Assembly (NCBI RefSeq): GCF_038502225.1
Contig: NC_091357.1
Coordinates: 7,976,639 to 8,040,638, forward strand
Reading direction: 5' to 3'
Source: Cherax quadricarinatus
Taxonomy: Eukaryota; Arthropoda; Malacostraca; Decapoda; Parastacidae
DNA: 64,000 nucleotides
Part shown: positions 1,426 to 64,000 of the stretch, in pieces
Layout: every line of letters begins with the position of its first letter
Position numbering within the stretch: position 1 is the stretch's first letter
The notes under the pieces: generated by a model
Databases searched by the model: none
Told to the model about the DNA's origin: nothing
The model's input: only the letters and a program-made list of their open reading frames with translations
Position numbers and translations under genes: made by a program

Positions 1426-1576
1426 ATATGTTTTCTTAGAGGACGGAGAATTAAGCCTACATTACTCTTAAGCCCTGAGTGAACCATATTGGTTCTTCCT
1501 TCTCTCTCTTTCCTTCCCCTTTCCCCGCTCCTTACCCTACGACTTTTTGCCCTTCTCGACTTTCTCACCTCAGCTG

Positions 1577-1617
1577 CGACTTGACAATGGTTCAGATTGG
1601 ACCGAAACGTCGCCGTA
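1577..1617 (+). ncRNA. Hammerhead-like module, TTGACAA core
   Basis: Core TTGACAA (1581-1587), one extra T, then a 6-bp hairpin GGTTCA-GAT-TGGACC (1589-1603), then GAAACGTC. Helix I (GCGAC against GCCGT) has one A:C mismatch, so this copy looks worn. U at core position 3 and A at position 8 match the other T-type modules in the window. Confidence 0.5.
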
Positions 1618-4227: not shown

Positions 4228-4410
4228 CAAAATGGCCATATCCCACCTAGGCAGGGTGACCTAAAGAGAAAAGCGTGAGTTTCTCTTTTTAAATTTAGTA
4301 ATTTATACAGGAGAAGGGGTTACTATCCCATTGCTCCTGGCATTTTAGCCGCCTCTTACGACAGGCATGACTTACGGAGGAAGAATTCTGTTCCACATCG
4401 CCATGGAATT
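4228..4410 (-). mobile_element. RTE-type 3'-end/SINE-like repeat
   Basis: Contains CCCACCTAGGCAGGGTGACC near the left edge and CTTACGGAGGAAGAATTCTG near the right. The same pair of phrases recurs at 54568-54753, and the first phrase at 30106-30150 next to RTE sequence. Read on the minus strand it would be the 3' end of an RTE-like element or a SINE sharing that tail. Confidence 0.6.
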
Positions 4411-4814
4411 ACCGCACCGAAACCAAATCCGAAAAAACTGACCAGAGAGCGCTTGCAGAGGCCAGTAACAGCAAGAACCTTCCCGTAGTTACAGTGCACC
4501 AGCGTAAAAAAATTGAAGTCGAACGGATGAGGCATTCTCCACTTATAAACCAAAACCTTAGAGGAATATAGTAGTAGGTTCGCCGGTGTTGACCCGGCCC
4601 GAGTCTTTTCCAGTTGGTGACCCGGTGGAGGAAGGAAAAAAAATGAATAGTGAGGCAAGCACCTAAACATAACTTGGAGATACCTAATTATAGGTATGAG
4701 AATGACGGAGCGAGGGACTAACATCTTCCTCTCCCGGCTCCCTGCCACAAATCTTGCCTGAGTCTGGGAATACTGCCACACATCCTCTCCACAACCATCA
4801 ACATGTAAATGAGC
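4411..4814. other. No gene seen
   Basis: Mixed-composition spacer between an RTE-like tail and the 25-bp array. No supported feature. Confidence 0.5.
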
Positions 4815-7211: not shown

Positions 7212-7512
7212 GGAGCTGGTGGATACAGCAACACAAGGTAATGGATACAGCAACACAAGATGATGGATACAGCAACACAAGGAGCTGGTGGATACAGCAA
7301 CACAAGGTGATGGATACAGCAACACAAGATGATGGATACAGCAACACAAGGAGCTGGTGGATACAGCAACACAAGGTAATGGATACAGCAACACAAGATG
7401 ATGGATACAGCAACACAAGGAGCTGGTGGATACAGCAACACAAGGTGATGGATACAGCAACACAAGATGATGGATACAGCAACACAAGGAGCTGGTGGAT
7501 ACAGCAACACAA
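7212..7512. repeat. 69-bp higher-order repeat at end of the array
   Basis: Three unlike sub-units (GGAGCTGGTGGATACAGC..., GGTGATGGATACAGC..., GATGATGGATACAGC...) repeat as a fixed trio. GGAGCTGG occurs at 7212, 7281, 7350, 7419 and 7488, exactly 69 bp apart each time. Confidence 0.95.
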
Positions 7513-7864
7513 GAAGGCGGATACAGCAACGTACTTCCCACAGTAATGAAGAAAAGACACCAGTGAAGAGCAAACTTTTAATTCGACTACGTTTCGTTCT
7601 ATAAAGAGAGAAATGTTTCCACAAGAGAACTTTGTTGTGCTCCTGTGTTTTACCACCACACGAGGTTTTGGCTGTATTGAATCAAATATAATTATGAGTT
7701 CTAGGGTTTAAGAGAGGTAATTATAGCAGCAGCGTGTTGGGTGACCTTGTTCAATTCAGTGAAGCTTTAATTTTAGCTGACAGTCTTGTCGGGTGTACCT
7801 AAGACCTCTTTACCAGTTAAGTGCTATATCCGGGTTGTAGTTCCCTTCCTCTCTCACACGCATA

Positions 7865-9440: not shown

Positions 9441-9970
9441 GACGTATGCTGCAGGGGAAAAAAAATAGGTGAAATCAGCCAAGGAAAACTACTGGGTGTC
9501 AGTGATCATGTTGCATTAAGTTTTGGGCACATGGTGTAAAAGGAAATGGGAGAATTAAGAAGTAGAAAATCGGACTAGAGGAGAGAAAATAATGACGGTA
9601 TGAAAACACCTGAATAGTTCAGAGGGAAAGGAAACTGGTAGGCAAAACGGTACGAAATTGGGATAGAGAAAGTTCCAACAGGCAAAGGAAAGATTTACGA
9701 AAGGCATGAAAAAAAAAAGATAGAGCTTATGGTTCAACTAGGAATGCAGAAAGTCACTGTGAGATGCTCGACCAAATATAAGCACATAAATAAAGCAGAA
9801 AACATGTAAACAAGAAACAGGAAACACGCAAAATGGCAGAGAATGTGTAAGAAAGCAAGAAAGGAGTGAGAAGAGAAGCTGCAAGACAGTTAAAAATAAT
9901 AGAGTAAAGTTCAAAACTTAACCAGAGCTATTTTACAGTAAAAAGAAAAATTACAGTTGCACTCACTCTT
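9441..9970 (+). pseudogene. Fossil non-LTR retrotransposon X2, endonuclease end and linker
   Basis: LLGVSDHVALSF (about 9487-9525) resembles the C-terminal SDH box of an APE-type endonuclease. After it come lysine/arginine-rich stretches (KIYERHEKKKIEL near 9680-9720; VRREAARQLKI near 9865-9900) typical of the endonuclease-RT linker. The fossil stops at the 25/20-bp minisatellite and its RT part reappears on the far side at 14740-15290. Frames are broken. Confidence 0.5.
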
Positions 9971-9974
9971 TCAG

Positions 9975-12900
9975 TGAAGTGGAGTGGAACTGTGGAGTGT
10001 GAAGTGGAGTGGAACTGTGGAGTGTGAAGTGGAACTGTGGAGTGTGAAGTGGAGTGGAACTGTGGAGTGTGAAGTGGAACTGTGGAGTGTGAAGTGGAGT
10101 GGAACTGTGGAGTGTGAAGTGGAACTGTGGAGTGTGAAGTGGAGTGGAACTGTGGAGTGTGAAGTGGAACTGTGGAGTGTGAAGTGGAGTGGAACTGTGG
10201 AGTGTGAAGTGGAACTGTGGAGTGTGAAGTGGAGTGGAACTGTGGAGTGTGAAGTGGAGTGGAACTGTGGAGTGTGAAGTGGAGTGGAACTGTGGAGTGT
10301 GAAGTGGAGTGGAACTGTGGAGTGTGAAGTGGAACTGTGGAGTGTGAAGTGGAGTGGAACTGTGGAGTGTGAAGTGGAACTGTGGAGTGTGAAGTGGAGT
10401 GGAACTGTGGAGTGTGAAGTGGAGTGGAACTGTGGAGTGTGAAGTGGAGTGGAACTGTGGAGTGTGAAGTGGAGTGGAACTGTGGAGTGTGAAGTGGAAC
10501 TGTGGAGTGTGAAGTGGAGTGGAACTGTGGAGTGTGAAGTGGAACTGTGGAGTGTGAAGTGGAGTGGAACTGTGGAGTGTGAAGTGGAGTGGAACTGTGG
10601 AGTGTGAAGTGGAGTGGAACTGTGGAGTGTGAAGTGGAGTGGAACTGTGGAGTGTGAAGTGGAACTGTGGAGTGTGAAGTGGAGTGGAACTGTGGAGTGT
10701 GAAGTGGAACTGTGGAGTGTGAAGTGGAGTGGAACTGTGGAGTGTGGAGTGGAACTGTGGAGTGTGAAGTGGAGTGGAACTGTGGAGTGTGAAGTGGAAC
10801 TGTGGAGTGTGAAGTGGAGTGGAACTGTGGAGTGTGAAGTGGAACTGTGGAGTGTGAAGTGGAGTGGAACTGTGGAGTGTGGAGTGGAACTGTGGAGTGT
10901 GAAGTGGAGTGGAACTGTGGAGTGTGAAGTGAAGTGGAACTGTGGAGTGTGAAGTGGAGTGGAACTGTGGAGTGTGAAGTGGAGTGGAACTGTGGAGTGT
11001 GAAGTGGAGTGGAACTGTGGAGTGTGAAGTGGAGTGGAACTGTGGAGTGTGAAGTGGAACTGTGGAGTGTGAAGTGGAGTGGAACTGTGGAGTGTGGAGT
11101 GGAGTGGAACTGTGGAGTGTGAAGTGGAGTGGAACTGTGGAGTGTGAAGTGGAACTGTGGAGTGTGAAGTGGAGTGGAACTGTGGAGTGTGGAGTGGAGT
11201 GGAACTGTGGAGTGTGAAGTGGAGTGGAACTGTGGAGTGTGAAGTGAAGTGGAACTGTGGAGTGTGAAGTGGAGTGGAACTGTGGAGTGCGGAGTGGAGT
11301 GGAACTGTGGACTGTGAAGTGAAGTGGAACTGTGGAGTGTGAAGTGGAGTGGAACTATGGAGTGTGAAGTGGAGTGGAACTGTGGAGTGTGAAGTGAAGT
11401 GGAACTGTGGAGTGTAACTGTGGAGTGTGAAGTGAAGTGGAACTGTGGAGTGTGAAGTGAAGTGGAACTGTGGAGTGTGAAGTGGAGTGGAACTGTGGAG
11501 TGTGGAGTGGAGTGGAACTGTGGAGTGTGAAGTGAAGTGGAACTGTGGAGTGTGGAGTGGAGTGGAACTGTGGAGTGTGAAGTGGAGTGGAACTGTGGAG
11601 TGTGGAGTGGAACTGTGGAGTGTGAAGTGGAGTGGAACTGTGGAGTGTGAAGTGGAGTGGAACTGTGGTGTGAAGTGGAGTGGAACTGTGGAGTGTGAAG
11701 TGAAGTGGAACTGTGGAGTGTGAAGTGGAGTGGAACTGTGGAGTGTAAAGTGGAGTGGAACTGTGGAGTGTGAAGTGGAGTGGAACTGTGGAGTGTGAAG
11801 TGGAGTGGAACTGTGGAGTGTGAAGTGGAACTGTGGAGTGTGAAGTGGAGTGGAACTGTGGAGTGTGAAGTGAAGTGGAACTGTGGAGTGTGAAGTGGAG
11901 TGGAACTGTGGAGTGTGAAGTGGAGTGGAACTGTGGAGTGTGGAGTGGAACTGTGGAGTGTGAAGTGGAGTGGAACTGTGGAGTGTGAAGTGAAGTGGAA
12001 CTGTGGAGTGTGAAGTGAAGTGGAACTGTGGAGTGTGAAGTGGAGTGGAACTGTGGAGTGTGGAGTGGAACTGTGGAGTGTGAAGTGGAGTGGAACTGTG
12101 GAGTGTGAAGTGGAGTGGAACTGTGGAGTGTGGAGTGGAGTGGAACTGTGGAGTGGAACTGTGGAGTGTGAAGTGGAGTGGATCTGTGGAGTGTGAAGTG
12201 GAGTGGAACTGTGGAGTGTGAAGTGGAGTGGAACTGTGGAGTGTAAAGTGGAGTGGAACTGTGGAGCGTGAAGTGGAGTGGAACTGTGGAGTGTGAAGTG
12301 GAGTGGAACTGTGGAGTGTGAAGTGGAGTGGATCTGTGGAGTGTGAAGTGGAGTGGAACTGTGGAGTGGAACTGTGGAGTGTAAAGTGGAGTGGAACTGT
12401 GGAGTGTGAAGTGGAGTGGATCTGTGGAGTGTGAAGTGGAGTGGAACTGTGGAGTGTGAAGTGGAGTGGAACTGTGGAGTGTGAAGTGGAGTGGAACTGT
12501 GGAGCGTGAAGTGGAGTGGAACTGTGGAGTGTGAAGTGGAGTGGAACTGTGGAGTGTGAAGTGGAGTGGATCTGTGGAGTGTGAAGTGGAGTGGAACTGT
12601 GGAGTGGAACTGTGGAGTGTAAAGTGGAGTGGAACTGTGGAGTGTGAAGTGAAGTGGAACTGTGGAGTGTGAAGTGGAGTGGAACTGTGGAGTGTGAAGT
12701 GGAGTGGAACTGTGGAGTGTGAAGTGGAGTGGAACTGTGGAGTGTGAAGTGGAGTGGAACTGTGGAGTGTGGAGTGGAGTGGAACTGTGGAGTTTGAAGT
12801 GGAGTGGAACTGTGGAGTGTGAAGTGGAGAGGAACTGTGGAGTGTGAAGTGGAGTGGAACTGTAGAGTGTGAAGTGGAGTGGAACTGTGGAGTGTGAAGT

Positions 12901-14735
12901 GAAGTGGAACTGTGGAGTGTGAAGTGGAGTGGAACTGTAGAGTGTGAAGTGGAGTGGAACTGTGAAGTGTGAAGTGGAGTGGAACTGTGGAGTGTGAAGT
13001 GGAGTGGAACTGTGGAGTGTGAAGTGGAGTGGAACTGTAGAGTGTGAAGTGGAGTGGAACTGTAGAGTGTGAAGTGGAGTGGAACTGTGAAGTGTGAAGT
13101 GGAGTGGAACTGTAGAGTGTGAAGTGGAGTGGAACTGTGAAGTGTGAAGTGGAGTGGAACTGTGAAGTGTGAAGTGGAGTGGAACTGTGGAGTGTGAAGT
13201 GGAGTGGAACTGTGGAGTGTGGAGTGGAACTGTGGAGTGTGAAGTGGAGTGGAACTGTGGAGTGTGGAGTGGAACTGTGGAGTGTGAAGTGGAGTGGAAC
13301 TGTGGAGTGTGAAGTGAAGTGGAGTGGAACTGTGGAGTGTGAAGTGGAGTGGAACTGTGGAGTGTGAAGTGGAGTGGAACTGTGGAGTGTGAAGTGGAGT
13401 GGAACTGTGGAGTGTGGAGTGGAGTGGAACTGTGGAGTTTGAAGTGGAGTGGAACTGTGGAATGTGAAGTGGAGAGGAACTGTGGAGTGTGAAGTGGAGT
13501 GGAACTGTAGAGTGTGAAGTGGAGTGGAACTGTGGAGTGTGAAGTGAAGTTGAACTGTGGAGTGTGAAGTGGAGTGGAACTGTAGAGTGTGAAGTGGAGT
13601 GGAACTGTGAAGTGTGGAGTGGAACTGTGGAGTGTGAAGTGGAGTGGAACTGTGGAGTGTGAAGTGGAGTGGAACTGTAGAGTGTGAAGTGGAGTGGAAC
13701 TGTAGAGTGTGAAGTGGAGTGGAACTGTGAAGTGTGAAGTGGAGTGGAACTGTAGAGTGTGAAGTGGAGTGGAACTGTGAAGTGTGAAGTGGAGTGGAAC
13801 TGTGAAGTGGAGTGGAACTGTGGAGTGTGAAGTGGAGTGGAACTGTGGAGTGTGGAGTGGAACTGTGGAGTGTGGAGTGGAACTGTGGAGTGTGGAGTGG
13901 AACTGTGGAGTGTGGAGTGGAACTGTGGAGTGTGAAGTGGAGTGGAACTGTGGAGTGTGGAGTGGAACTGTGGAGTGTGAAGTGGAACTGTGGAGTGTGA
14001 AGTGGAGTGGAACTGTGGAGTGGAGTGGAACTGTGGAGTGTGAAGTGGAATGGAATTGTGGAGTGTGAAGTGGAGTGGAACTGTGGAGTGTGGAGTGGAA
14101 CTGTGGAGTGTGAAGTGGAGTGGAACTGTGGAGTGTGAAGTGGAGTGGAACTGTGGAGTGTGGAGTGGAACTGTGGAGTGGAACTGTGGAGTGTGAAGTG
14201 AAGTGGAACTGTGGAGTGTGTGAAGTGGAGTGGAACTGTGGAGTGTGAAGTGGAGTGGAACTGTGGAGTGGAACTGTGGAGTGGAGTGGAACTGTGGAGT
14301 GTGGAGTGGAATTGTGGAGTGTGAACTGGAGTGGAACTGTGGAGTGTGGAGTGGAACTGTGGAGTGTGAAGTGGAGTGGAACTGTGGAGTGTGGAGTGGA
14401 ACTGTGGAGTGTGAAGTGGAGTGGAACTGTGGAGTGTGAAGTGGAGTGGAACTGTGGAGTGTGAAGCGAAGTGGAACTGTGGAGTGTAAAGTGGAGTGGA
14501 ACTGTGGAGTGTGGAGTGGAACTGTGGAGTGTGAAGTGGAGTGGAACTGTGGAGTGTAAAGTGGAGTGGAACTCTGGAGTGTGAAGTGGAGCGGAACTAT
14601 GGAGTGTGAAGTGGAGTGGAACTGTGGAGTGTGAAGTGGAGTGGAACTGTGGAGTGTAAAGTGGAGTGGAACTCTGGAGTGTGAAGTGGAGCGGAACTAT
14701 GGAGTGTGAAGTGGAGTGGAACTGTGGAGTGGAGC
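9975..14735. repeat. 4.8-kb minisatellite of 25- and 20-bp units
   Basis: About 200 copies of GAAGTGGAGTGGAACTGTGG plus AGTGT (25 bp), and a 20-bp form lacking one GAGTG step. The left end alternates 25/20 in 45-bp pairs. To the right variants (GAGTTTGAAG, GGAGAGGAAC, GGATCTGTGG) mark larger block duplications: GAGTTTGAAG near 12791 and 13436 are 645 bp apart, and ACTCTGGAG at 14571 and 14671 are 100 bp apart. The minus strand lacks stops and gives a 1694-residue pseudo-protein (HSSTPLHTPQF repeats). Confidence 0.97.
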
Positions 14736-14739
14736 TAAG

Positions 14740-15290
14740 AGGATGACAGAAGTATATTAAGAGCTTAGCAGATGAGATCTTCACATAAGAATGTGGAGAC
14801 ACAAAAACAAGAAAAACAGGAAAGGGCAGACCGCATTTTCCTGGATTGCAAAAGAAATAAAGGTATATAACTGAATAAAAGACTGCTTCAGAAATTATAT
14901 GAGTATGCGCCAAAAAAGGCAATATTTTCCCAAAAGATGAAGAAATAATTAAAAAATACAAGGCAGACAATAACAGCAAGGTATAAAGCATCAAAATGCT
15001 GTCGTTCCGCAAGGTCCCTAATTAGGGCCGCTACTGTTCCTAATATACGTCAACGACCTATCAGATACGATTGATTATGTATGACTAACGATAAAGATAA
15101 AAAAAAAAAAGATAAAAAGGCTTCACGAATATATGTACAAAATGACCTGAAACTAATGCAAGGTTATGCAGATTGAGGAAGTTACGGGAAGAACAAACAC
15201 AGTACAGAATGGGAGGACAGAAGTAGCAAATAACACTGTAGATAATGATCTGAGGGTAACTATGACATCCAGCAAATTGATAAGTCATCA
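14740..15290 (+). pseudogene. Fossil non-LTR retrotransposon X2, RT part
   Basis: At 15003-15065 one frame reads VPQGP, a stop, then LGPLLFLIYVNDLSD, which is RT motif B of CR1-like elements with a single nonsense codon. At about 15162-15285 another reads KVMQIEEVTGRTNT, then NDLRVTMTSSKL, the post-catalytic KVM...DLGV region. The catalytic FADD box was not found between them. With 9441-9970 this suggests one element split by the minisatellite. Confidence 0.6.
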
Positions 15291-18382: not shown

Positions 18383-18497
18383 TCAAATCCAACCCCTCCC
18401 ACTCATGTACTTATCCAACCTAAATTTGAAACTACCCAAAGTCCTAGCCTCAATAACCCAACTAGGTAGACTGTTCCACTCATCAACTACCCTATTT
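18383..18497 (-). CDS. CR1-A ORF2, C-terminal end beyond the PLE insertion
   Basis: Encodes the last part of the ORF2 protein (DEWNSLPSWVIEARTLGSFK and on to a YMSGRGWI end). It is separated from the rest of ORF2 by PLE-A. The join falls in the 13-bp target duplication AACTACCCTATTT, present at 18485-18497 and 20214-20226, so before insertion the frame would have been continuous. Confidence 0.8.
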
Positions 18498-18528
18498 GGA
18501 AATAAATGGTATAAAATACCGACACAAT

Positions 18529-19054
18529 GGAAATATAAACACAAATGCAGTATAATGTGATCCTTTATTGACAACGTTTCACCCACGCAGTGGGCTTTTT
18601 CAAGTCACACACGGATCTACCTGGGGTTGGAAGGTACGGGAGTATTTATAGTTCAGAACGTTGAGGTCAGGTGGAGATTGCTGCATCAGATGATCTACCG
18701 GGTGGGGTTATAGAGTCTTGGGTAGCTAGGCGGGGATATTGGACAAGTTGTGAGTAGACCTTCTGCAGTGTTCTATGTTCTTATGTGGGATAGCGATGAA
18801 GAAGTTTCTTGGCGAGTGGTTCAGCTATGTTATAGAAGCCATTGTTCTGGTTGAAATTGTTGGTTATAGAGATAAACGATGATTCCAGGATTCTTCTGTA
18901 TTGAGTGTTGTCTTCTGTGGCTATAAGTCTTGAGTTTCTGTAGTTAATTAAATGGTTGTGTGAATTGCGATGTTGTACACAGGCATTCCTTGTATCGTCA
19001 GTCCTGCTTGCATATTGGTGTTCTGAAATACGTGTTTGGAGGTCTCTTGATGTT
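18529..19054 (-). repeat. PLE-A inverted arm (left)
   Basis: Reverse complement of 19688-20213 with few differences; carries antisense endonuclease and the minus-strand ribozyme module. The long open frame that runs through it into the RT is partly antisense and should not be read as protein before about 19055. Confidence 0.9.
18569..18607 (-). ncRNA. Hammerhead-like module, family A, inverted copy
   Basis: Same as the module at 20135-20173 but on the minus strand (core TTGAAAA at 18597-18603). Confidence 0.65.
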
Positions 19055-19961
19055 TTCGCTCCGTTATGTTGACGACATTCTCCTCATAACTCCTAAACGC
19101 TTCAACGTTCAAGCTCTCCAAGACAAGCTCAACCAGGTCGAGCCTTCAATCCAATTCACACTTGAAGAAGAAGTCGACAACACTCTTCCTTTCCTTGATG
19201 TTCTACTCTGCAAAGCTGACCACGAACTTCGTTTTAAAGTCTATCGAAAACCCACCAACCAAAACGATCTTCTCCACTTCTACTCTCACCACGACACCAA
19301 AACCAAACGTGGTGTAATTATAGGCTTCTTCCTGCGTGCACTCAGAATCTGCAGCAACGAGTTCCTTGAGGAAGAATGCACTATAATTGAACAAGTATTT
19401 TCCAAACTCCACTATCCTCGTCACTTCATCAGAGACTGCAGACGGCGAGCATTAAACATCTTCAACACACCCAGAGAAGACACTGCCGAGAAGAGATACA
19501 TAGTCCTTCCCACCAACTCCATTGCCAAACATGTTTCCAACATCTTTGCCAAAACATCATTCCAAGTATCTACCTCCACAACCACGACCATCAAGGACAT
19601 CACCAGTAGTAGACAGGACAAGCCTCCATCCTCTGCAGGGGTATACATAATCCCTTGTAATGACTGCAACAAATTATATGTGGGCGAAACATCAAGAGAC
19701 CTCCAAACACGTATTTCAGAACACCAATATGCAAGCAGGACTGACGATACAAGGAATGCCTGTGTACAACATCGCAATTCACACAACCATTTAATTAACT
19801 ACAGAAACTCAAGACTTATAGCCACAGAAGACAACACTCAATACAGAAGAATCCTGGAATCATCGTTTATCTCTATAACCAACAATTTCAACCAGAACAA
19901 TGGCTTCTATAACATAGCTGAACCACTCGCCAAGAAACTTCTTCATCGCTATCCCACATAA
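19055..19961 (+). CDS. Penelope-like RT C-terminus plus GIY-YIG endonuclease (5' truncated)
   Basis: The protein would reverse-transcribe the element and nick target DNA. Starting in the RT palm it shows SLRYVDDILL with the catalytic YVDD, then PFLDVLL, FKVYRKPTNQ, FFLRALRICS and LHYPRHFI, which are the C-terminal RT/thumb blocks of Penelope-like elements. About 190 residues after YVDD comes a GIY-YIG endonuclease: GVYIIPCNDCNKLYVGETSR, then an arginine in LQTRISEH and the C-terminal helix ending in KKLLHRYPT. The N-terminal half of the RT is missing; the apparent start upstream lies in the inverted arm. No internal stop is seen, so the copy is recent but dead by truncation. The stop is 178 bases before the ribozyme-like core. 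Confidence 0.9.
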
Positions 19962-20090
19962 GAAGATAGAACACTGCAGAAGGTCTACTCACAACTTGTC
20001 CAATATCCCCGCCTAGCTACCCAAGACTCTATAACCCCACCCGGTAGATCATCTGATGCAGCAATCTTCACCTGACCTCAACGTTCTGAA

Positions 20091-20100
20091 CTATAAATAC
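20091..20100 (+). promoter_or_regulatory. TATA-like box of PLE-A
   Basis: CTATAAATAC, 39 bases before the ribozyme-like core. TATA-like words also precede the module in families B, D and E. A promoter role is inferred from position only. Confidence 0.35.
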
Positions 20101-20134
20101 TCCCGTACCTTCCAACCCCAGGTAGATCCGTGTG

Positions 20135-20173
20135 TGACTTGAAAAAGCCCACTGCGTGGGTGAAACGTTGTCA
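20135..20173 (+). ncRNA. Hammerhead-like module, family A
   Basis: Helix I TGAC (20135-20138) pairs with GTCA (20170-20173). Core TTGAAAA (20139-20145) has U3 and A8 in place of the usual C3 and G8, which keeps the 3-8 pair. One extra A follows, then helix II GCCCAC-TGC-GTGGGT (20147-20161), GAA, and ACGT as a self-complementary helix III, then T (the expected cleavage base at 20169). AATAAAGG follows immediately. Hammerheads are known in Penelope-like elements. Deviations: the extra base before helix II, a loopless helix III that would need a dimer, and the swapped core pair. Confidence 0.7.
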
Positions 20174-20213
20174 ATAAAGGATCACATTATACTGCATTTG
20201 TGTTTATATTTCC

Positions 20214-23048
20214 AACTACCCTATTTCCAAACCAATACTTTCCTATGTCCTTTCTAAATCTAAACTTATCTAATTTAAATCCATTACTGCGGGTTCTCTC
20301 TTGGAGAGATATCCTGAAGACCTTGTTAATATCCCCTTTATTAATACCTATCTTCCACTTATACACTTCGATCAGGTCTCCCCTCATTCTTCGTCTAACA
20401 AGTGAATGTAACTTAAGAGTCTTCAATCTTTCTTCATAAGGAAGATTTCTAATGCTATGTATTAATTTAGTCATCCTACGCTGAATGTTTTCTAACGAAT
20501 TTATGTCCATTCTGTAATATGGAGACCAGAATTGAGCTGCATAATCTAGGTGAGGCCTTACTAATGATGTATAAAGCTGCAGTATGACCTCTGGACTTCT
20601 GTTGCTTACACTTCTTGATATAAATCCCAATAATCTATTTGCCTTATTACGTACGCTTAGGCATTGCTGTCTTGGTTTAAGGTTGCTGCTTACCATAACC
20701 CCCAAGTCCTTTTCGCAATCTGTATGGCTAAGTTCTACATTATTTAACTTATAAGTGCTATGGTTATGGACACTTCCGAGCTTCAGAACCTTGCATTTAT
20801 CTACATTGAACTGCATCTGCCACTTTTCTGACCAAGAGTAGAGTTTGTCTAAATCCTCCTGAAGTTCCCTAACATCTACGTTTGAATCAATTATCCTACC
20901 TATCTTCGTGTCATCGGCGAATTTGCTCATATCACTAGTAATTCCTTCATCAAGATCATTGATATATATTATAAACAACAACGGGCCCAAGACTGATCCC
21001 TGTGGAACGCCACTCGTTACTGATGTCCACTCGGATTTAACCCCATTTATGGACACTCTCTGCTTCCTGTCTGTGAGCCATGATTCGATCCACGAGAGCA
21101 CTCTTCCCCCAATGCCATGAGCTGCTACTTTCTTCAACAGTCTTTGGTGCGGAACTCTATCAAATGCCTTACTAAAATCTAAGTAAATAATATCAAATTC
21201 TTTATCGTGGTCAACAGCCTCAAAAGCTTTACTGAAAAAAGTTAATAAATTAGTTAGACAAGACCGGCCTCTTGTGAATCCATGCTGAGTATCATTAATC
21301 AAGCTATGCTTATCGAGATGGCTTCTTATAATTTGAGCTATAATTGACTCTAGTAATTTGCCTACAATTGAGGTCAGGCTTATTGGGCGGTAATTTGACG
21401 GTAACGACTTGTCCCCTGTTTTAAAAATAGGAATTACATTAGCCATCTTCCACATATCAGACACTACACCTGTTTGAAGAGATAAATTAAAAATATTAGT
21501 TAATGGTTCACAGACTTCCATTTTGCATTCCTTTAGAACCCTTGAAAAAACCTCATCAGTACCCGGTGACTTATTTTGCTTCAGTCGGTCTATCTGCTTC
21601 ACAACCATTTCACTAGTGACTGTGATGTTACATAATTTATCTTCTTCTGGCCCACTATAAAAATTAATTACCGGAACACTACTATTGTCTTCCTGTGTAA
21701 AAACCGAGAGAAAATAATTATTTAAAATCGAGCACATTTCATTCTCTTTGTCAGTAAGATGCCCATAGTTATTTTTAAGGGGACCTATCTTATCTCTGAC
21801 TTTTGTTCTATATACCTGGAAAAAACTTTTTGGGTTAGTTTTAGAATCCCTAGCAACTTTAATTTCATAGTCCCTTTTAGCTTTTCTTATCCCCTTTTTA
21901 ATGTCCCTCTTAGTGTCAATATACTGATTCATAAGATGACCCTCGCCTCTTTTGATACGCCTATAAATTCCTTTCTTATGCCCTAGTAGATATTTCAGCC
22001 TATTATTCATCCATTTTGGGTCATTTCTATTTGATCTAATTTCTTTATAAGGGATAAATGTTCTTTGAGCAGCATGTATTGTGTTCAGAAAACTGTCATA
22101 TTGATAGCTCTCTTCGTTACCCCAGTCAACAGATGATAAGTGTTCTCTAAGCCCATCGTAATCTGCTAAGCGAAAATCTGGGACTGTTACTGAGTTATCC
22201 CTACTATCATACTTCCATTCAATTCTAAATGTAATTGATTTGTGGTCGCTAGCACCCAGTTCTTCTGAAACTTCTAAATTATTAACAAGGGATTCATTGT
22301 TTGCCAGAACTAAGTCAAGCAGGTTATTACCCCTTGTAGGTTCTGTCACAAACTGCTTCAGAAAACAATCCTGAACTACTTCTAAGAAGTCGTATGATTC
22401 TAAATTCCCAGTCAAGAAATTCCAATCAATATGACTAAAGTTAAAGTCTCCTAGAATTACTACATTATCGTGCCTTGTGGCCCTAACAATTTCCTCCCAT
22501 AGTAGTCTTCCCTTGTCCCTATCTAAATTTGGGGGACGGTATATCACACCTAAAGTTAATTTTTCATGCCCCTCTGAAAATTCTATCCAAACAGACTCTG
22601 TATGTGTTACTTCAGACTTAATACCCGTTTTAATGCAACAGTTCAAGCGATCTCGGACATACAATGCCACCCCACCCCCCTTCCCGATACTTCTATCTAC
22701 TTGGAACAATTTGAAACCCTGAATGTGACATTCTGCAGGCATGTCCCGACTTTTTGAATTAAACCACGTCTCAGTAATGGCAAATACATCTATGTTACCT
22801 GCACTAGCAACTAGTCTCAACTCGTCCATCTTATTCCTAGCACTGCGACTATTTGTGTAATATATACTTAAGGACCCTCCTTTCTCTTTATCATTCCTGC
22901 TCCTTTCTGTTATTCCACTAAACCTATTACTGTCCTTGTCAATTAGTGCCACTGGCCTTCCGATATCCACCTCATTTTGCCTATTACTAGTTCTCCTAGT
23001 ACTCATATTACTACCCTGAGACTTCACAGTTTTTCCGCAGAAACCCAT
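20214..23048 (-). CDS. CR1-A ORF2: AP endonuclease and reverse transcriptase (interrupted at 3' end)
   Basis: Nicks target DNA and copies the element RNA into it. Residues 58-280 form an APE-type endonuclease: ITETWF with its glutamate near 93, GVIYRPP (167), LGDFN (199) and GASDHKSI (265). The RT follows with KSPGTDEV (493), VIPIFKTGD (538), NYRPISL (552), LDFSKAFDRV (623), GVPQGSVLGPLLF (680) and the catalytic FADD (710-713). The C-terminal region carries RSHLDY-style VRPHLDYAAQFWSP and IQRRMTKLIH. The start ATG at 23048 lies 14 bases after ORF1 ends. The frame is open for 945 codons, then hits PLE-A; the remaining residues lie at 18383-18497. Confidence 0.93.
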
Positions 23049-23062
23049 ACCACTAACTATTC

Positions 23063-24028
23063 CTAGTTTAAAGACCTAACAGCTCCCTCCACTGCGTTGG
23101 CCAGTGCTCCCACCCCACACCTAGACAAGTGAACCCCATCCCTGGCATACATGTCATTTCTGCCATAGAAGAGGTCCCAGTTGTCAATGAATGTTACCAC
23201 ATTTTCCTTACAGTATTTGTCCAGCCAGCAATTGACACCAATTGCTCTGGACAACCATTCATTTCCAACTCCTCTCCTTGGCAAAATGCCACATATGACA
23301 GGTTTCCCACCCTTCTTCCTAATTATCTCTATTGCTGACCTATACCTGCTAATCAGGTCCTCACTCCTACGTCTGCCAACATCGTTGCCTCCAGCACTGA
23401 GACAGATAATAGGATTGCTCCCATTACCTCTCATGATGTCATCCAGACGGCTAACAATATCCTTCATCCCAGCCCCAGGAAAACACACTCTCTGCCTCCT
23501 ACTCCTATCCTTCAAACAGAATGCCCTATCCATGTACCTAATCTGACTATCCCCAACAACAACAATGTTTTTACCTTCCTTGGCGTCGTCCGTAGTGATG
23601 CTCCGAGTAGTCGACTCAAATTCGCCAGGTAGCATTACACCACTTGTAGAATTCGTCATGACGTTCTCGATGGTCTTCGTTGGGGTTTCTAGGGATGTCT
23701 CACTCACGTCTGCCAATGTTTCCTTGGTGCTCGTTGTGGCATTCCCAGTAGAACACTCACATTCGTCAGGTAGCACCGAGAATGAGTTGGAAGTTTCCAC
23801 GGCAGTCTTCTGGTTTCTCGTTGTTTCTGCCTCTCCAACCGTTTTCTTAATCTTCAGCTTGGTTCCATGTTGCCCGACCACTGACCAAGCTCCCCTCTTA
23901 ACCTGGGGACTCACAACAGGAGGATTACTACGAATCCTCTTGTTCTCTTCCGTTAATCGCCGTATCTCCAGTTTAGCAACTCTGAGTTCTTCTCTCAGCT
24001 GCTGGTAAAGCTGCTCAAGAGAGGGCAT
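23063..24028 (-). CDS. CR1-A ORF1 with SGNH-hydrolase-like domain
   Basis: A 321-residue ORF1. Residues 1-33 are a heptad-like charged helix (LYQQLREELRVAKLEIRRL), probably a coiled coil. A serine/threonine-rich linker follows. From about 150 there is an SGNH/GDSL esterase-like fold: IVVVGDSQIRY (serine box, 155-165), FPGAGM (183-188), CLSAGGNDV (209-217) and ARDGVHLS with the Asp/His pair (295-302). Esterase-type ORF1 proteins are known in CR1-group elements; their role in transposition is not settled. Start ATG at 24028, no internal stop. Confidence 0.9.
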   Translation of the reverse strand: MPSLEQLYQQLREELRVAKLEIRRLTEENKRIRSNPPVVSPQVKRGAWSVVGQHGTKLKIKKTVGEAETTRNQKTAVETSNSFSVLPDECECSTGNATTSTKETLADVSETSLETPTKTIENVMTNSTSGVMLPGEFESTTRSITTDDAKEGKNIVVVGDSQIRYMDRAFCLKDRSRRQRVCFPGAGMKDIVSRLDDIMRGNGSNPIICLSAGGNDVGRRRSEDLISRYRSAIEIIRKKGGKPVICGILPRRGVGNEWLSRAIGVNCWLDKYCKENVVTFIDNWDLFYGRNDMYARDGVHLSRCGVGALANAVEGAVRSLN

Positions 24029-36100: not shown

Positions 36101-36449
36101 ATATATTTGAAATTTGAGGTGCTTAGATTGAAAGAATACAGCGTGGATGTGGCAGTCAATTAAGCCTATTGTTGAGTTCTGTTTCTTCTAACACACCCAC
36201 ACCAAACAGGCCAAGTATCTATTGACAAGTGTCCTTAACAACTGGTAAATACACACACACTATCAAAAACAGAGCAAATGTCTATCGACAAATGCCTTTG
36301 ACAACTAGTGACTACTACTATTACTACACACACACACAAGAGGTACGATAAAGCTCTTAGAGCAGGGAGAGGACCTTGTAACGACCAGCGAAGAGGCGGG
36401 GCCAGAAGCTGTGACTCAACCCCTATAACCACACACACACACAAAGGTT
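36101..36449. other. Duplicated spacer and a SINE-like copy
   Basis: 36215-36250 (TATTGACAAGTGTCCTTAAC) and 36280-36310 (TATCGACAAATGCCTTTGAC) are diverged tandem copies. 36341-36430 matches the SINE-like repeat at 35541 (GATAAAGCTCTTAGAGCAGG, GCGAAGAGGCGGGGCCAGAA). No gene. Confidence 0.5.
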
Positions 36450-38246: not shown

Positions 38247-38500
38247 TTTACCTGGAGTTTACCTGGAGAGAGTTCCGGGGGTCAACGCCCCCGCGGCCCG
38301 GTCTGAGACCAGGCCTCCTGGTGGATCAGAGCCTGATCAACCAGGCTGTTGCTGCTGGCTGCACGCAAACCAACATACGAGCCACAGCCCGGCTGATCCG
38401 GAACTGACTTTAGGTGCTTGTCCAGTGCCAGCTTGAAGACTGCCAGGGGTCTGTTGGTAATCCCCCTTATGTGTGCTGGGAGGCAGTTGAACAGTTGTTT
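38247..38500 (-). pseudogene. Non-LTR retrotransposon tail inserted in the minisatellite
   Basis: The minus strand encodes LFNCLPAHIRGITNRPLAVF, LDKHLKSVPDQPGCGSYVG and LVDQALIHQEAWSQTGPRGR, the C-terminus of a CR1/Rex-like ORF2, followed by its 3' UTR (GGGGGCGTTGACCCCCGGAA on the minus strand). Same family as 61775-62270 and 56886-57150. Confidence 0.8.
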
Positions 38501-40969: not shown

Positions 40970-41007
40970 AAATATAAACACAAAAGCAGTATAATGTGAT
41001 CCTTTAT

Positions 41008-41046
41008 TGACAACGTTTCACCCACACAGTGGGCTTTTTCAAGTCA
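41008..41046 (-). ncRNA. Hammerhead-like module, family A (in PLE fragment)
   Basis: Core TTGAAAA (antisense of 41036-41042), helix II GCCCAC-TGT-GTGGGT, GAAACGTT, helix I TGAC/GTCA. Same as 20135-20173 with one loop change. Confidence 0.65.
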
Positions 41047-41214
41047 CACACGGATCTACCTGGGGTTGGAAGGTACGAGAGTATTTATAGTCAGAATGTT
41101 GAGGTCAGGTGAAGAATGCTGCATCTGATGATCCACCGGGTGGGGTTATAGAGTCTTGGGTAGCTTGGCAGGGGTATTGGACAAGTTGTAGACCTTCTGC
41201 AGTGTTCTATGTTC

Positions 41215-41462: not shown

Positions 41463-41480
41463 CGCATTTCAGAACACCAG

Positions 41481-41950: not shown

Positions 41951-42022
41951 AACATTAAAATGGTATAAAATACCGACAGGTTGTTAGGTAAGACACATAT
42001 GCAACAGTTAGGTATCTTTATT

Positions 42023-42061
42023 TCGAAACGTTTCGCCTACACAGTAGGCTTCTTCAGTCGA
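42023..42061 (-). ncRNA. Hammerhead-like module, family D, left arm
   Basis: Minus strand: helix I TCGA/TCGA, core CTGAAGA, extra A, helix II GCCTAC-TGT-GTAGGC, GAAACGTT. Confidence 0.7.
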
Positions 42062-42287
42062 GTACAGAAAAGTTGCTAGAAGCATAAGAGACTTGAAGAC
42101 GATGTAATCAGTCCATCACCCTTAAAGTTTTGAGGTGTTCAGTCCCTCAGTCCCTTCAGGTCTGATACAGACCTGAAATCAACTTCGACCACCTCTACTA
42201 GTGAGAACGGCTGGATTTGAGAGGGACCTGACCTCCAACATCTGCGTTCTTACCTCTACTAGTGACCTACGTCTCACCTCCTGGCGC

Positions 42288-42296
42288 TATATAAGG
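42288..42296 (+). promoter_or_regulatory. TATA-like box of family D element
   Basis: TATATAAGG in the middle of the element, 155 bases before the plus-strand ribozyme core. Role inferred from recurrence in families A, B and E. Confidence 0.35.
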
Positions 42297-42446
42297 CTTC
42301 ATCCTGTCACTTCAACTCCATATTGTTTCAGACTATGGAACAATGCTCTTCTCCCGACTGAGGGACTGACCACCTCAAAACTTTAAGGGTGATGGACTGA
42401 TTACATCGTCTTCATCTCTCTTATGCTTCAATGAAGTTTTCTGTAC

Positions 42447-42485
42447 TCGACTGAAGAAGCCTACTGTGTAGGCGAAACGTTTCGA
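42447..42485 (+). ncRNA. Hammerhead-like module, family D
   Basis: Helix I TCGA (42447-42450) with TCGA (42482-42485); core CTGAAGA (42451-42457) fits the CUGANGA consensus; one extra A; helix II GCCTAC-TGT-GTAGGC (42459-42473); GAA; palindromic ACGT; predicted cleavage after T42481. AATAAAG follows. Confidence 0.72.
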
Positions 42486-42539
42486 AATAAAGATACCCAA
42501 CTGTTGCATGTGTGTCTTACCTAACACACAGGAAGACTG

Positions 42540-42833
42540 ATAGGTAAGACACATAGGCAACAGTTAGGCAACTTTATTCCGAAACGTTTCGCCTACACAG
42601 TAGGCTTCTTCAGTCGAATACAGAAAGTAGGCAGGAACAGTAGAGATGTGAAGACGATGTAATCAGTCCATCACCCTTGAAGTCGAAGAATTTGAGGTTG
42701 TCAGTCCCTCAGCCTGGAGAAGTTCAGTTCCATAGTCAGGAACGTTTCGGAATAAAGTTGCCTAACTGTTGCCTATGTGTCTTACCTATCAACCTGTCCG
42801 TATTGTATACCATTTTGATGTTCACACAGGAAG
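42540..42833. mobile_element. Second short Penelope-like inverted element, family D
   Basis: 294 bp placed directly against the previous element, between further copies of the same 14-mer (42526-42539 and 42834-42847). A long left arm carries a minus-strand ribozyme module (42578-42618). The right arm begins at AACGTTTCGG (42741) and ends with the terminal hairpin TGTCCGTATTGTATACCA (42795-42812), so its polarity is opposite to its neighbour. Confidence 0.8.
42578..42618 (-). ncRNA. Hammerhead-like module, family D
   Basis: Core CTGAAGA (antisense of 42607-42613); helix I TTCGA with TCGGA (one G:U); helix II GCCTAC-TGT-GTAGGC; GAAACGTT. Confidence 0.7.
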
Positions 42834-43636: not shown

Positions 43637-43828
43637 TCAAATCCAACCCATCCCACTCATGTATTTATCCAACCTAAATTTGAAACTACCCAAAGTCCTA
43701 GCCTCAATAACCCAACTAGGTAGACTGTTCCACTCATCTACTACCCTATTTCCAAACCAATACTTTCCTATGTCCTTTCTAAATCTAAACTTATCTAATT
43801 TAAATCCATTACTGCGGGTTCTCTCTTG
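43637..43828 (-). pseudogene. CR1-B ORF2 C-terminus beyond PLE-B
   Basis: Encodes ERTRSNGFKLDKFRFRKDIG through KYMSGMGWI and stop. Separated from the body by PLE-B. Confidence 0.85.
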
Positions 43829-43901
43829 TAATAAAGTTGGTAGAATTACGGACAATATGTAAAGTAAAAGGACACAAGTGCAACTAATGTGACATTTATT
43901 G

Positions 43902-43938
43902 TGGCAACGTTTCGCTCTCCAGGAGCTTTATCAAGCCA
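43902..43938 (-). ncRNA. Hammerhead-like module, family B, left arm
   Basis: Minus-strand mirror of the module at 44834-44870 (core TTGATAA, antisense of 43928-43934). Confidence 0.65.
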
Positions 43939-44196
43939 TTACAAACAATACATGGACACAGAGGGTATATAAAGGCTCAGAGTGAGGTGAATACTAGTGA
44001 GGTACCATTCCGATGTTCACTAGTGGTAGTAGTAGTAGTAGTGGTAGTGACAAAAGCAATTAATTCGTACATGAGTAAAAGGATACAAAAGCTATTACTT
44101 GGGTAACATAAAAATAGGTTGGACAAATATAAACTGGAATGAGGCAGGTTGTTTCAGTGTTCACTCTCTGTGCTTTGTGTAGTATAACAGGAGAGA

Positions 44197-44376: not shown

Positions 44377-44392
44377 AATTTCCACCAATCAT

Positions 44393-44572
44393 CTTATGAA
44401 ATTCAGAGACGCCCAATTAGTGATAAAAGAAACTAATTTCCGCACACGCAAATGCCTTGAATCAGCACTGATCGCTGTTTCGAATACAATTAAACAAAAC
44501 AACGGCAGCTTCACCATCTCCGAAGTCTTAGCAAGAATCCTCCTGAAAACTGTAAACCCTGCCATCACATAG
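44393..44572 (+). pseudogene. PLE-B endonuclease C-terminal fragment, right arm
   Basis: Same protein piece as the left arm, on the plus strand. It ends 266 bases before the ribozyme core at 44838, with TATA-like TTTATATA (44799-44806) in between. Confidence 0.75.
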
Positions 44573-44833
44573 TCTCTCCTGTTATACTACACAAAGCACA
44601 GAGAGTGAACACTGAAACAACCTGCCTCATTCCAGTTTATATTTGTCCAACCTATTTTTATGTTACCCAAGTAATAGCTTTTGTTTCCTTTTACTCATGT
44701 ACGAATTAATTGCTTTTGTCACTACCACTACTACTACTACTACTACCACTAGTGAACATCGGAATGGTACCTCACTAGTATTCACCTCACTCTGAGCCTT
44801 TATATACCCTCTGTGTCCATGTATTGTTTGTAA

Positions 44834-44870
44834 TGGCTTGATAAAGCTCCTGGAGAGCGAAACGTTGCCA
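44834..44870 (+). ncRNA. Hammerhead-like module, family B
   Basis: Helix I TGGC (44834-44837) with GCCA (44867-44870); core TTGATAA (U3, A8); extra A; helix II GCTC-CTGGA-GAGC; GAA; palindromic ACGT; predicted cleavage after T44866. CAATAAATG follows. Confidence 0.7.
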
Positions 44871-44926
44871 CAATAAATGTCACATTAGTTGCACTTGTGT
44901 CCTTTTACTTTACGGGTTCTCTCTTG

Positions 44927-47670: not shown

Positions 47671-47684
47671 ACCACTAACTATTC

Positions 47685-49244: not shown

Positions 49245-49572
49245 ATGTGTGATGAATGGTTTGAAAAACCGACAAGTTGAAGATTGAGACACTTATGCAA
49301 CATATGAGAATCTTTATTCAGGAAACGGTTTGTTGGGATCTTAATACTTAGGAATTCTTCGCTTGCCTAATTCTTGGGCACGACCTACTTCCACATTGAA
49401 CAAATGTGACACCACCTATGACTGCTGTACCTCTCCTGCCATACGGTTTATAAGCTGCTTCTCCGCTCATATGCCGTGTTCTATTCAAGATTGATGGACT
49501 GAACACATCGACTCAAGGTTGAGGGACTGATTACCTCATTCTCCTCCTGTTCTTCAAGTTTCTCCTACGTAT

Positions 49573-49607
49573 GGACTGATGAAGCCACTGTGTGGCGAAA
49601 CGTTTCC
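49573..49607 (+). ncRNA. Hammerhead-like module, family E, unit 1
   Basis: Helix I GGA (49573-49575) with TCC (49605-49607); core CTGATGA (49576-49582), the textbook hammerhead sequence; extra A; helix II GCCAC-TGT-GTGGC; GAA; ACGT; predicted cleavage after T49604. CAATAAAG follows. Confidence 0.75.
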
Positions 49608-49944
49608 TCAATAAAGATACCCAAGAGTTGCACATGTGTCTAATTTATCAACATGTCGGTTCTCTGAACCATTCATCTACAAACCTGTCAGACACTGCAA
49701 CTTCTTGGGATCTTAATACTTAGGAATTCTTCGCTTGCCTAATTCTTGGGCACGACCTACTTCCACATTGAACAAATGTGACACCACCTATGACTGCTGC
49801 ACCTCTCCTGCCATACGGTTTATAAGCTGCTTCTCCGCTCATATGCCGTATTCTATTCAAGATTGATGGACTGAACACATCGACTCAAGGTTGAGGGACT
49901 GATTACCTCATTCTCCTCCTGTTCTTCAAGTTTCTCCTACGTAT

Positions 49945-49979
49945 GGACTGATGAAGCCACTGTGTGGCGAAACGTTTCC
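49945..49979 (+). ncRNA. Hammerhead-like module, family E, unit 2
   Basis: Identical to unit 1, 372 bases further on. In a transcript of both units, cleavage at the two sites would release one 372-nt monomer. Confidence 0.75.
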
Positions 49980-50055
49980 TCAATAAAGATACCCAAGAGT
50001 TGCACATGTGTCTAATTTATCAACATGTCGGTTCTCTGAACCATTCATCTACAAA

Positions 50056-53931: not shown

Positions 53932-54255
53932 TGCGATAAAGTTTATTACGGTCAAACTGGTAAAAGTCTCGAACTTAGATTAAAGCAACATAAATATAAC
54001 ATTAGAACTGGACAAGATTTCAATGCTCTATTTATTCACTTGAGAGATTTTAACCATCCAATTGATTTTCAAAAAGTTGAGAAAGTTGTATCAAGCAAGT
54101 CCATGGTTGACAGGAATATAATTGAATCTTGTTTCATAAAAACCAGTTTTGAAAATATGAATATTTCCTTAGGTTTATATAAATTAGATTCATTTATAAT
54201 TAATAAAATTTGGACAAATAATAAACCTTATTTCTTGGGTAGAATAATTTGTTAG
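53932..54255 (+). pseudogene. PLE-C GIY-YIG endonuclease fragment
   Basis: CDKVYYGQTGKSLELRLKQH is the second half of a GIY-YIG motif (YYGQTGKS, catalytic arginine in ELRLKQH). It continues to KSMVDRNIIESCFIKTSFEN and a stop at 54255. The GIY box itself and the RT are missing. A clearly different lineage from PLE-A and PLE-B. The stop is 175 bases before the ribozyme core. Confidence 0.8.
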
Positions 54256-54425
54256 TGGGATGTCTTGAGGACCTGTCTAGTTGGACCAGCGGACCTACTG
54301 CAGTGTTCCTCTATTCTTATGAGTCCGGTATTGTCCCGCGTCAGGTGTTTCTTTGTTGTGGGAGTTGACTGTGAGGTGTGGTCTAAGCCCTTTAATTGCC
54401 TTCCTTTGATGTATTACTTTCATAG

Positions 54426-54463
54426 TTCCTTGACAATGTGAGTAGTCACGAAAGCGCTTGGAA
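54426..54463 (+). ncRNA. Hammerhead-like module, family C
   Basis: Helix I TTCC (54426-54429) with GGAA (54460-54463); core TTGACAA (U3, A8); extra T; helix II GTGA-GTAG-TCAC (54438-54449); GAA; AGCGCT as palindromic helix III in place of ACGT; predicted cleavage after T54459. No AATAAA follows here. Confidence 0.65.
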
Positions 54464-54492
54464 TTTCACTACTCTTTCACAGTGGTTGTTTT

Positions 54493-63744: not shown

Positions 63745-63785
63745 GATGATTAAGACACATGGGCAACACTTGGGTGTCTTTATTG

Positions 63786-63824
63786 TTGAAACGTTTCGCC
63801 TACAAGGTAGGCTTCATCAGTCAA
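63786..63824 (-). ncRNA. Hammerhead-like module, CTGATGA core
   Basis: Minus strand: helix I TTGA/TCAA, core CTGATGA, extra A, helix II GCCTAC-CTT-GTAGGC, GAAACGTT. Confidence 0.7.
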
Positions 63825-63933
63825 ATACAGAAGATAATGTATTGTAATCAGTCCCATCAACCCTGCTTAATGGATTGATTACATCTTCATCCCGCCACTA
63901 CTACTGCTGTCTACAATACATTCTTCTCTGTAT

Positions 63934-63972
63934 TTGACTGAAGAAGCCTACTATGTAGGCGAAACGTTTCAA
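63934..63972 (+). ncRNA. Hammerhead-like module, family D
   Basis: Helix I TTGA (63934-63937) with TCAA (63969-63972); core CTGAAGA; helix II GCCTAC-TAT-GTAGGC; GAAACGTT; predicted cleavage after T63968. Confidence 0.7.
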
Positions 63973-64000
63973 CAATATAAATACCCAACTGCTGCACATG

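Follow-up and report, generated by a model that had tools for sequence, protein, structure and literature searches.

According to PMC6155905, all available Penelope-like elements (PLEs) carry hammerhead ribozymes, usually minimal forms that do without helix III, and these are described there as having no tertiary contact between loops I and II. The minimal type I PLE hammerheads (Cervera and De la Pena 2014; Lunse, Weinberg and Breaker 2017), known here through the papers that cite them (PMC6155905, PMC7229834, PMC10085705, PMC11167929), share their location in the PLE, their helix order and a loopless helix III with the modules analysed here. As described in those papers, they differ in two respects, namely that here the core pair 3-8 is U-A or G-C in large families, and that an extra base follows A9. 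Poseidon PAc of Anolis carolinensis (PMC11167929) is likewise a PLE with a hammerhead, and its insertions end near two adjacent starts, reverse transcription being reported to begin at two adjacent internal sites and both DNA strands to be extended. In that report, hammerhead cutting needs the PLE protein, no RNA reads start or end at the cut site, and insertion is independent of cleavage, as catalytic mutants still insert. PAc differs from the changed cores found here in having C3-G8; G3-C8 appears in that report only as a laboratory C3G/G8C double mutant, which partly restores cleavage.

Natural U3-A8 hammerheads have been reported and shown to be active in vitro (Perreault et al. 2011, PMC3088659). 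The same swap is found here, but that report speaks of 'several' examples whereas here it characterizes whole retroelement families and is joined by G3-C8. In the CChMVd(+) hammerhead, A9 and G10.1 are separated by one additional A (PMC3705267, citing De la Pena and Flores 2001), which is reported to slow trans-cleavage moderately, while a U in its place speeds it. The extra A is the same as here, but CChMVd is a viroid and not a retroelement, and its U variant may be compared with the extra U of PLE-C. Metazoan retrozymes (PMC7229834) resemble lineages E and D described below in that their tandem repeats are short and non-coding, with a single type I hammerhead in every unit; E and D are unlike them, as described in that source, in having a minimal PLE-type hammerhead, a PLE-like tail and some arrays arranged head to head. 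The kind of hammerhead is thus already known, with the loopless helix III, the extra base and U3-A8 all in print in these sources. Among the matches listed for literature pairing hammerhead ribozymes with Cherax, Penelope or crayfish, none carried a ribozyme term.

The DNA analysed, referred to as the window, is a stretch of 64,000 nucleotides from Cherax quadricarinatus. It corresponds to G000:C66:7976639-8040638 in the 3.95-Gb assembly. An initial annotation had placed hammerhead-like modules behind the endonuclease in three PLE lineages, with cores starting at 20139 (PLE-A), 44838 (PLE-B) and 54430 (PLE-C). Direct reading and a structure scan agree with these positions and with the pairing of all helices, and the positions it predicted for 5'-hydroxyl ends (20170, 44867 and 54460) are correct on the raw sequence. 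The order in all three is helix I, seven core letters, one extra base, the helix II hairpin, GAA, a palindrome, H17 and helix I. PLE-A reads TGAC, TTGAAAA, A, GCCCAC-TGC-GTGGGT, GAA, ACGT, T^GTCA; PLE-B reads TGGC, TTGATAA, A, GCTC-CTGGA-GAGC, GAA, ACGT, T^GCCA; and PLE-C reads AGTTCC, TTGACAA, T, GTGA-GTAG-TCAC, GAA, AGCGCT, T^GGAATT. The modules do lie downstream of the endonuclease stop codon, at distances of 177 nt (A), 265 nt (B) and 174 nt (C) and not the 178, 266 and 175 nt first given. The further statement that the lineages share almost no bases in helices I and II does not hold for A and B, which share three of four letters in helix I (TGAC/TGGC) and both begin the 5' strand of helix II with GC. 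Nor is there a mixture of C/U and G/A in the core, since all three have U3 and A8. The coordinates of all features are listed in Table 1.

Table 1. Hammerhead-like modules and associated features in the window (positions counted from its first nucleotide)
Feature	Position	Strand	Evidence and remarks
PLE-A module, U3-A8 core	20133..20175	+	Predicted cut 20169^20170; structure scan; 9.1e-11 with model lacking A rows
PLE-A module, inverted partner of the 20133 module	18567..18609	-	Structure scan, covariance model; 528-nt perfect inverted arms
PLE-A module, further copy	41006..41048	-	Structure scan, covariance model; A-type endonuclease frame upstream
PLE-B module, U3-A8 core	44832..44872	+	Predicted cut 44866^44867; structure scan; 2.5e-14 with model lacking B rows
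PLE-B module, inverted partner	43900..43940	-	Structure scan, covariance model
PLE-C module, U3-A8, extra U, 6-nt palindrome AGCGCT	54424..54465	+	Predicted cut 54459^54460; structure scan; found by neither R1 nor R2
PLE-D module, C3-G8 core and extra A	42445..42487	+	Structure scan
PLE-D module, inverted partner	42021..42063	-	Structure scan
PLE-D module of neighbouring insertion	42577..42619	-	Structure scan
Lineage E module, C3-G8 and extra A, first of tandem pair	49570..49610	+	Structure scan; Rfam Hammerhead_3 16.4 bits, below gathering level
Lineage E module, second in the tandem pair, offset by 372 nt	49942..49982	+	Structure scan
Lineage F module, C3-G8	63932..63974	+	Structure scan
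Lineage F module, C3-G8, inverted partner	63784..63826	-	Structure scan
Old diverged module, U3-A8, H17=C, one helix I mismatch	1575..1617	+	1.8e-9, but itself a row in both models
PLE-A frame, reverse transcriptase end (YVDD) and GIY-YIG endonuclease	19056..19961	+	Pfam GIY-YIG 1.5e-7 on 18951-19958
PLE-B endonuclease frame, C-terminal end	44390..44571	+	42-44 % identity to PLE-A C-terminus
PLE-C GIY-YIG endonuclease frame, partial	53932..54255	+	Weak Pfam GIY-YIG 0.0057, below curated cut-off
Target-site duplication CAACTACCCTATTT, left copy, PLE-A insertion	18484..18497	.	13-14 bp; first C may be tail
Target-site duplication CAACTACCCTATTT, right copy, PLE-A insertion	20213..20226	.	
Target-site duplication CGGGTTCTCTCTTG, left copy, PLE-B insertion	43815..43828	.	
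Target-site duplication CGGGTTCTCTCTTG, right copy, PLE-B insertion	44913..44926	.	
Tandem dimer of the 372-nt non-coding lineage E unit	49330..50049	+	300-nt direct repeat, 99 %, spacing 372

The structure scan required C/U at position 3, A/G at position 8, at least three helix II pairs, GAA, a palindrome ending in T, an H17 other than G and at least three helix I pairs. It returned 13 modules on the two strands of the window and none in 60 first-order Markov windows. Restricted to C-G, U-A and G-C at 3-8, it again gave 13 in the window, and 24 in 7,077 Markov windows (0.0034 per window). Overlooked in the initial annotation were the minus-strand copies with cores starting at 18603, 43934 and 41042, as well as lineages D, E and F, represented by C3-G8 modules at 42451+, 42613-, 42057-, 49576+, 49948+, 63938+ and 63820-. 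The scan and the covariation described below give a three-helix junction in the type I hammerhead order, in which helix III is represented only by the self-complementary, loopless stretch (ACGU or AGCGCU). GAA, A15.1-U16.1 and a non-G H17 were read directly in A, B and C, and elsewhere were imposed by the search pattern.

No lineage from A to F, nor family H described below, has the strict CUGANGA core with nothing between A9 and helix II. The core is UUGANAA in A, B and C, GUGANCA in H and CUGANGA in D, E and F, and one extra base is found in A to F and in H; single copies, for example one in locus L095, fit without it. Because A, B, C and H depart from CUGANGA and all these lineages have the extra base, the modules were filed as a hammerhead variant. 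Exactly one extra base between A9 and helix II gives the best fit for all 13 scan modules and for 81 of the 91 distinct modules from the window and the other loci. As D, E and F combine the canonical core with an extra A, the changed cores are not alone in having the additional base. The extra base and the loopless helix III, presented initially as non-canonical points, are indeed there, but both had already been published (PMC3705267 and PMC6155905, respectively). The truly unusual point is the rewritten core pair, which was not singled out at that stage. Among six modules folded, the hammerhead junction was the minimum-energy monomer structure only for A and D.

For PLE-A, a reverse transcriptase and a GIY-YIG endonuclease are found in one frame, with relatives that carry PF00078 and PF01541. 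These relatives reach 95 % identity over the whole query, and many have the reverse transcriptase domain PF00078. Four Cherax quadricarinatus records (P0007, P0009, P0012 and P0019) match the PLE-A frame at 95-99 % over 36-100 % of the length; there were no matches among solved structures at E<=0.01. The coding evidence for PLE-B and PLE-C consists of partial endonuclease frames. A 59-residue piece of PLE-B has no Pfam match, and the PLE-C frame has six homologues, two of them with PF01541, and over 94 residues shows 30 % identity to PLE-A. A protein tree unites A, B, G and H in one clade (99/96) and leaves C outside, G and C filling just 30-31 % of the columns; this tree does not resolve the order of the changes at 3-8. 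The top 40 scored PLE-A candidates out of 1,191 are 100 % identical over 151 nt, so this PLE-A variant has been recently mobile. Two proteins labelled bacterial, P0002 (Vibrio parahaemolyticus) and P0026 (a cyanobacterial bin), match these PLE proteins; their labels probably reflect host contamination of the records.

Pairing was assessed in an unselected set of 91 distinct modules from the window and the loci, using a search pattern without constraints on positions 3 and 8 or on the pairing of any helix. For helix I (pairs 1-4), 283 of 364 cells are paired, compared to a shuffled mean of 186.9, and for helix II (pairs 1-3) 238 of 273, compared to 184.4. The pair 3-8 is Watson-Crick in 84 of 91 modules (47.5 in shuffles), a figure that is biased because many loci were fetched by patterns fixing 3 and 8; the helix figures are free of this bias. 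None of 1,000 shuffles reached any of the three values. The pairing thus exceeds that of shuffled sequence in helix I, helix II and, with the bias noted, the core pair.

A smaller alignment, A2, was built from 20 of 30 representatives picked by hand plus one further locus (L045), so that ten representatives were left aside, namely two joins and eight more of which some paired poorly. In two C rows, whose helix III is longer, MAFFT misplaced that helix; without these, 19 rows remained. In these, 91.2 % of cells are paired, compared to 67.0 % in shuffles and at most 59.3 % in slid versions, and 43 cells are double-changed, compared to 11.6. The score of 0.730 (0.257 in shuffles; 0 of 500 reached it) is better than that of every slide. 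As the rows are related copies, the shuffles overstate the case. The pair 3-8 is Watson-Crick in 19 of the 19 hand-picked rows (13 UA, 4 CG and 2 GC). Every module search prescribed TGA, A9, GAA, the palindrome and H17, and the invariance of these elements is therefore no evidence. Judged by the covariation, the fold looks selected, a reading that is well supported.

The initial annotation had proposed searches with a custom covariance model and with the Rfam hammerhead models. A model built from 11 rows, none labelled A, B or C (R2), finds B at 2.5e-14 and A at 9.1e-11. PLE-C was not found at E<=10 by the model without A, B and C rows, and a model without C rows gave it only a partial match of 5.6 bits. 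The custom model thus recovers A and B from other lineages but not C. Since neither covariance model finds it, C rests on the structure scan, the GIY-YIG-like frame upstream and 23,080 genome matches (control 0). The Rfam search returned no match in the window that reached gathering level, and even at E<=10 it detected no hammerhead at the A, B and C modules. The relatives with a canonical core fared little better; E matched only Hammerhead_3, at 16.4 bits and E 0.36, and D matched nothing. The Rfam test is therefore blind to the minimal form and says little on A, B and C, and as a membership test it was rejected. For comparison across species, 33 stretches from viral contigs that match two related patterns were passed through the structure scan, and one passed, with 3-bp helices. 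The assignment to hammerhead-like PLE modules is backed by the covariation of helices I and II and of 3-8, together with tens of thousands of genome matches.

Genome-wide counts were obtained on both strands with patterns made up of the core, a gap of 8-22 and GAAACGTT (GAAACGYTG for U-A), the backward pattern serving as control. With C-G at 3-8 there were 132,689 matches (control 235), with U-A 39,397 (control 275) and with G-C 10,052 (control 901), and the PLE-C form, searched with a pattern of its own, gave the 23,080 noted above. U.G gave 4,388 (control 518) and C.A 4,540 (control 468), and A-U, with 810 (control 552), was near background. Amplified families thus occur for three of the four Watson-Crick pairs and not for A-U. 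As a few big families dominate these counts, they are not counts of independent events.

About 60 of the 100 G3-C8 matches listed are, by hand count, one identical sequence, designated family H. Its helix I has six pairs (TTAGAA with TTCTAA), and at two loci (L119 and L126) the module lies 113-114 nt behind an endonuclease frame that is 52 % identical to PLE-A over 277 residues. A natural G3-C8 hammerhead was not found in the literature searched, Cervera and De la Pena (2014) and Lunse et al. (2017) lying outside that search. An apparent third G-C case, on the minus strand of the window near 24421, proved to be a join of inverted insertions. The A-A, A-G and G-A modules among 70 distinct ones were likewise set aside, two being joins between inverted insertions and the other a PLE-A-like copy in which position 3 has changed. 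C3-G8 also occurs in lineage G, which is coding. The 100 U.G matches listed include D, E and B modules that differ by a single letter, as well as strings unrelated to them; by hand count there are 12 that are otherwise consensus E and 8 that are otherwise consensus D, so small U.G subfamilies may exist. The C.A matches listed, with letters for the first 62, resemble them. Natural PLE hammerheads seem, from these alignments and counts, to have exchanged the core pair for at least two others and to have spread.

The way in which these elements insert was examined in 19 inverted module pairs of lineages other than C, and shows the PLE features of a tail downstream of the ribozyme, two start sites and a target-site duplication. 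A repeat of 12-15 bp flanks the insertion in 11 of the 19, and in 10 of these 11 the tail after GAAACGTT is 41-47 nt at one end and 73-78 nt at the other. At both ends the RNA tail comes after the module. Two-sided insertions in the window include 18484-20226, 43815-44926 and 41937-42540; the inverted arms of the PLE-A insertion match perfectly over 528 nt, and a duplication of 14 bp flanks the PLE-B insertion. The tail lengths fit a process in which both DNA ends are extended, each from its own start site with about 30 nt between the two, and are reminiscent of the Anolis PLE (PMC11167929). As the module is upstream of the start sites, the templates were copied through it. The PLE-A and PLE-B insertions both lie in the end of one LINE-like family (20187-23075 and 44885-47697, minus strand). 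Long minisatellite-like stretches, open in several frames, occupy 4356-7707, 9928-15021 and 36235-42036 of the window.

Templates cut by the hammerhead would be expected to give cDNA that frequently stops precisely at nucleotide 1.1. For PLE-B, whose copies are estimated at about ten thousand or more from the share of B among the U-A matches listed, we searched for a non-T before nucleotide 1.1 with no G 13 places further up, palindromic loci being counted twice. There was no pile-up of PLE-B insertion ends at the predicted cut site, and just 81 genome matches were found. Most of the 81 are recurrent joins with GC/GCCA microhomology, including a tail-to-tail palindrome at 15 loci, one blunt form and inverted-arm joins. 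A handful have unrelated upstream letters and could be true ends. A join at the helix III palindrome was found at 11 loci, and one at the 5' edge of the core at 406 loci (e.g. G000:C1:5539-5566), which may be one mobile palindrome. This 406-locus form is a recurrent, minimal palindromic insertion of PLE-B in which two modules stand back to back, joined at the edge of the core and overlapping by GC; it represents a mobile palindrome or else a site where cDNA ends cluster. PLE-B insertions thus do not as a rule stem from cut templates, which counts against a role of cleavage in insertion and not against cleavage itself. As the insertion ends do not gather at the cut site, cleavage would not be a needed step in making the PLE-B insertion template.

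Lineages D and E consist of short non-coding tandem units with one hammerhead each. The 372-nt unit of E stands in direct tandem in the window, and when this unit is circularized its longest open run is 49 aa (plus strand). Locus L057 holds two complete and identical E units of 378 nt, and neighbouring E pairs at 360-390 nt number 7,967 genome-wide (control 0). Among the pairs listed, 25 minus-strand pairs are followed by 37 plus-strand pairs at C1:24,552,600-24,576,226, so that within 24 kb about 26 units on one strand face about 38 on the other. Further head-to-head sets of smaller size lie at C1:10.00, 12.74, 24.23 and 26.13 Mb, and other listed E arrays are one-stranded, e.g. at C1:20.37 Mb. 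For lineage D, five units, all U3.G8, are spaced 420 nt apart within each strand and arranged head to head at G000:C1:66714543-66720564, as if copied from one template. Rolling-circle copying of circular RNA from both DNA ends would explain such head-to-head arrays; unequal crossing-over could also have given rise to tandem arrays. The E copy at 49251-50049 of the window has a left inverted arm that is just 78 % alike, so this arm may stem from another E subtype.

The modules are most probably minimal type I hammerhead ribozymes of several PLE lineages in a decapod genome, for which we infer cleavage; that they are self-cleaving, or recently were, as proposed initially, is plausible. Two modules, in tandem copies or on two transcripts, would pair via helix III, and each RNA would be cut between H17 and nucleotide 1.1, perhaps with the help of the element's own protein as reported for PAc (PMC11167929). 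Cleavage would then serve transcript processing, yielding unit-length or circular RNA. The PLE-B result and the tails also suit a different reading, in which the module, though derived from a hammerhead, has lost its cutting activity and persists as a conserved structural RNA, acting as a recognition site for the PLE protein or a pausing site beside the start of reverse transcription, with 3-8 kept for the fold alone. In 10 of the 11 duplication-flanked pairs the insertion ends do lie 41-47 or 73-78 nt downstream of the module, insertions copied through the module are the rule and ends at the cut site rare, and Anolis catalytic mutants are reported still to insert (PMC11167929). However, the pair that survives the swaps is the one holding the catalytic centre together, and it does so in three pairings, which favours a working centre without proving it, and the published U3-A8 hammerheads are active (PMC3088659). 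We regard loss of cutting as unlikely. Decay of the hammerheads in A, B and C, with C3U, G8A and the extra base as damage, would account for the departure from strict CUGANGA and for the U.G and C.A copies, but is very improbable, as the changed letters are fixed as a pair in young, amplified families and lineages with a canonical core carry the extra base too. Chance, or a repeated palindrome with no meaning as RNA, such as a DNA site of the endonuclease, is scarcely credible. ACGT and AGCGCT palindromes and inverted insertions make palindromic DNA common here, but Markov windows give only 0.0034 matches each, helices I and II covary, and the single viral stretch of 33 that passed had 3-bp helices.

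An extension of the hammerhead reading, which we put forward tentatively and consider unlikely, divides the families in two. The coding PLE families (A, B and C with U3-A8, and H with G3-C8) would do without cleavage for their insertion templates, whereas the non-coding C3-G8 lineages E and D would use it to release unit-length RNA, which would form a circle and be copied repeatedly by the PLE enzyme from both cut DNA ends into head-to-head arrays. The core pair would then be an evolutionary dial for cleavage. Lineage G, which is coding yet C3-G8, does not fit this division, and unequal crossing-over could also build the arrays.

The pair 3-8 lies inside the catalytic core, and because the general acid may be the 2'-OH of nucleotide 8 (PMC6155905), the base is in principle swappable if the pair stays. 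Laboratory double mutants implied as much, and evolution seems to have done so in whole retroelement families, which makes the crayfish families ready-made natural variants for measurement. The 3-8 swaps argue for selection on the PLE hammerhead fold. The question of the purpose of PLE ribozymes is sharpened by PLE-B insertion ends that bear no sign of the predicted cut, and with the tandem arrays the link proposed between PLEs and retrozymes becomes open to testing.
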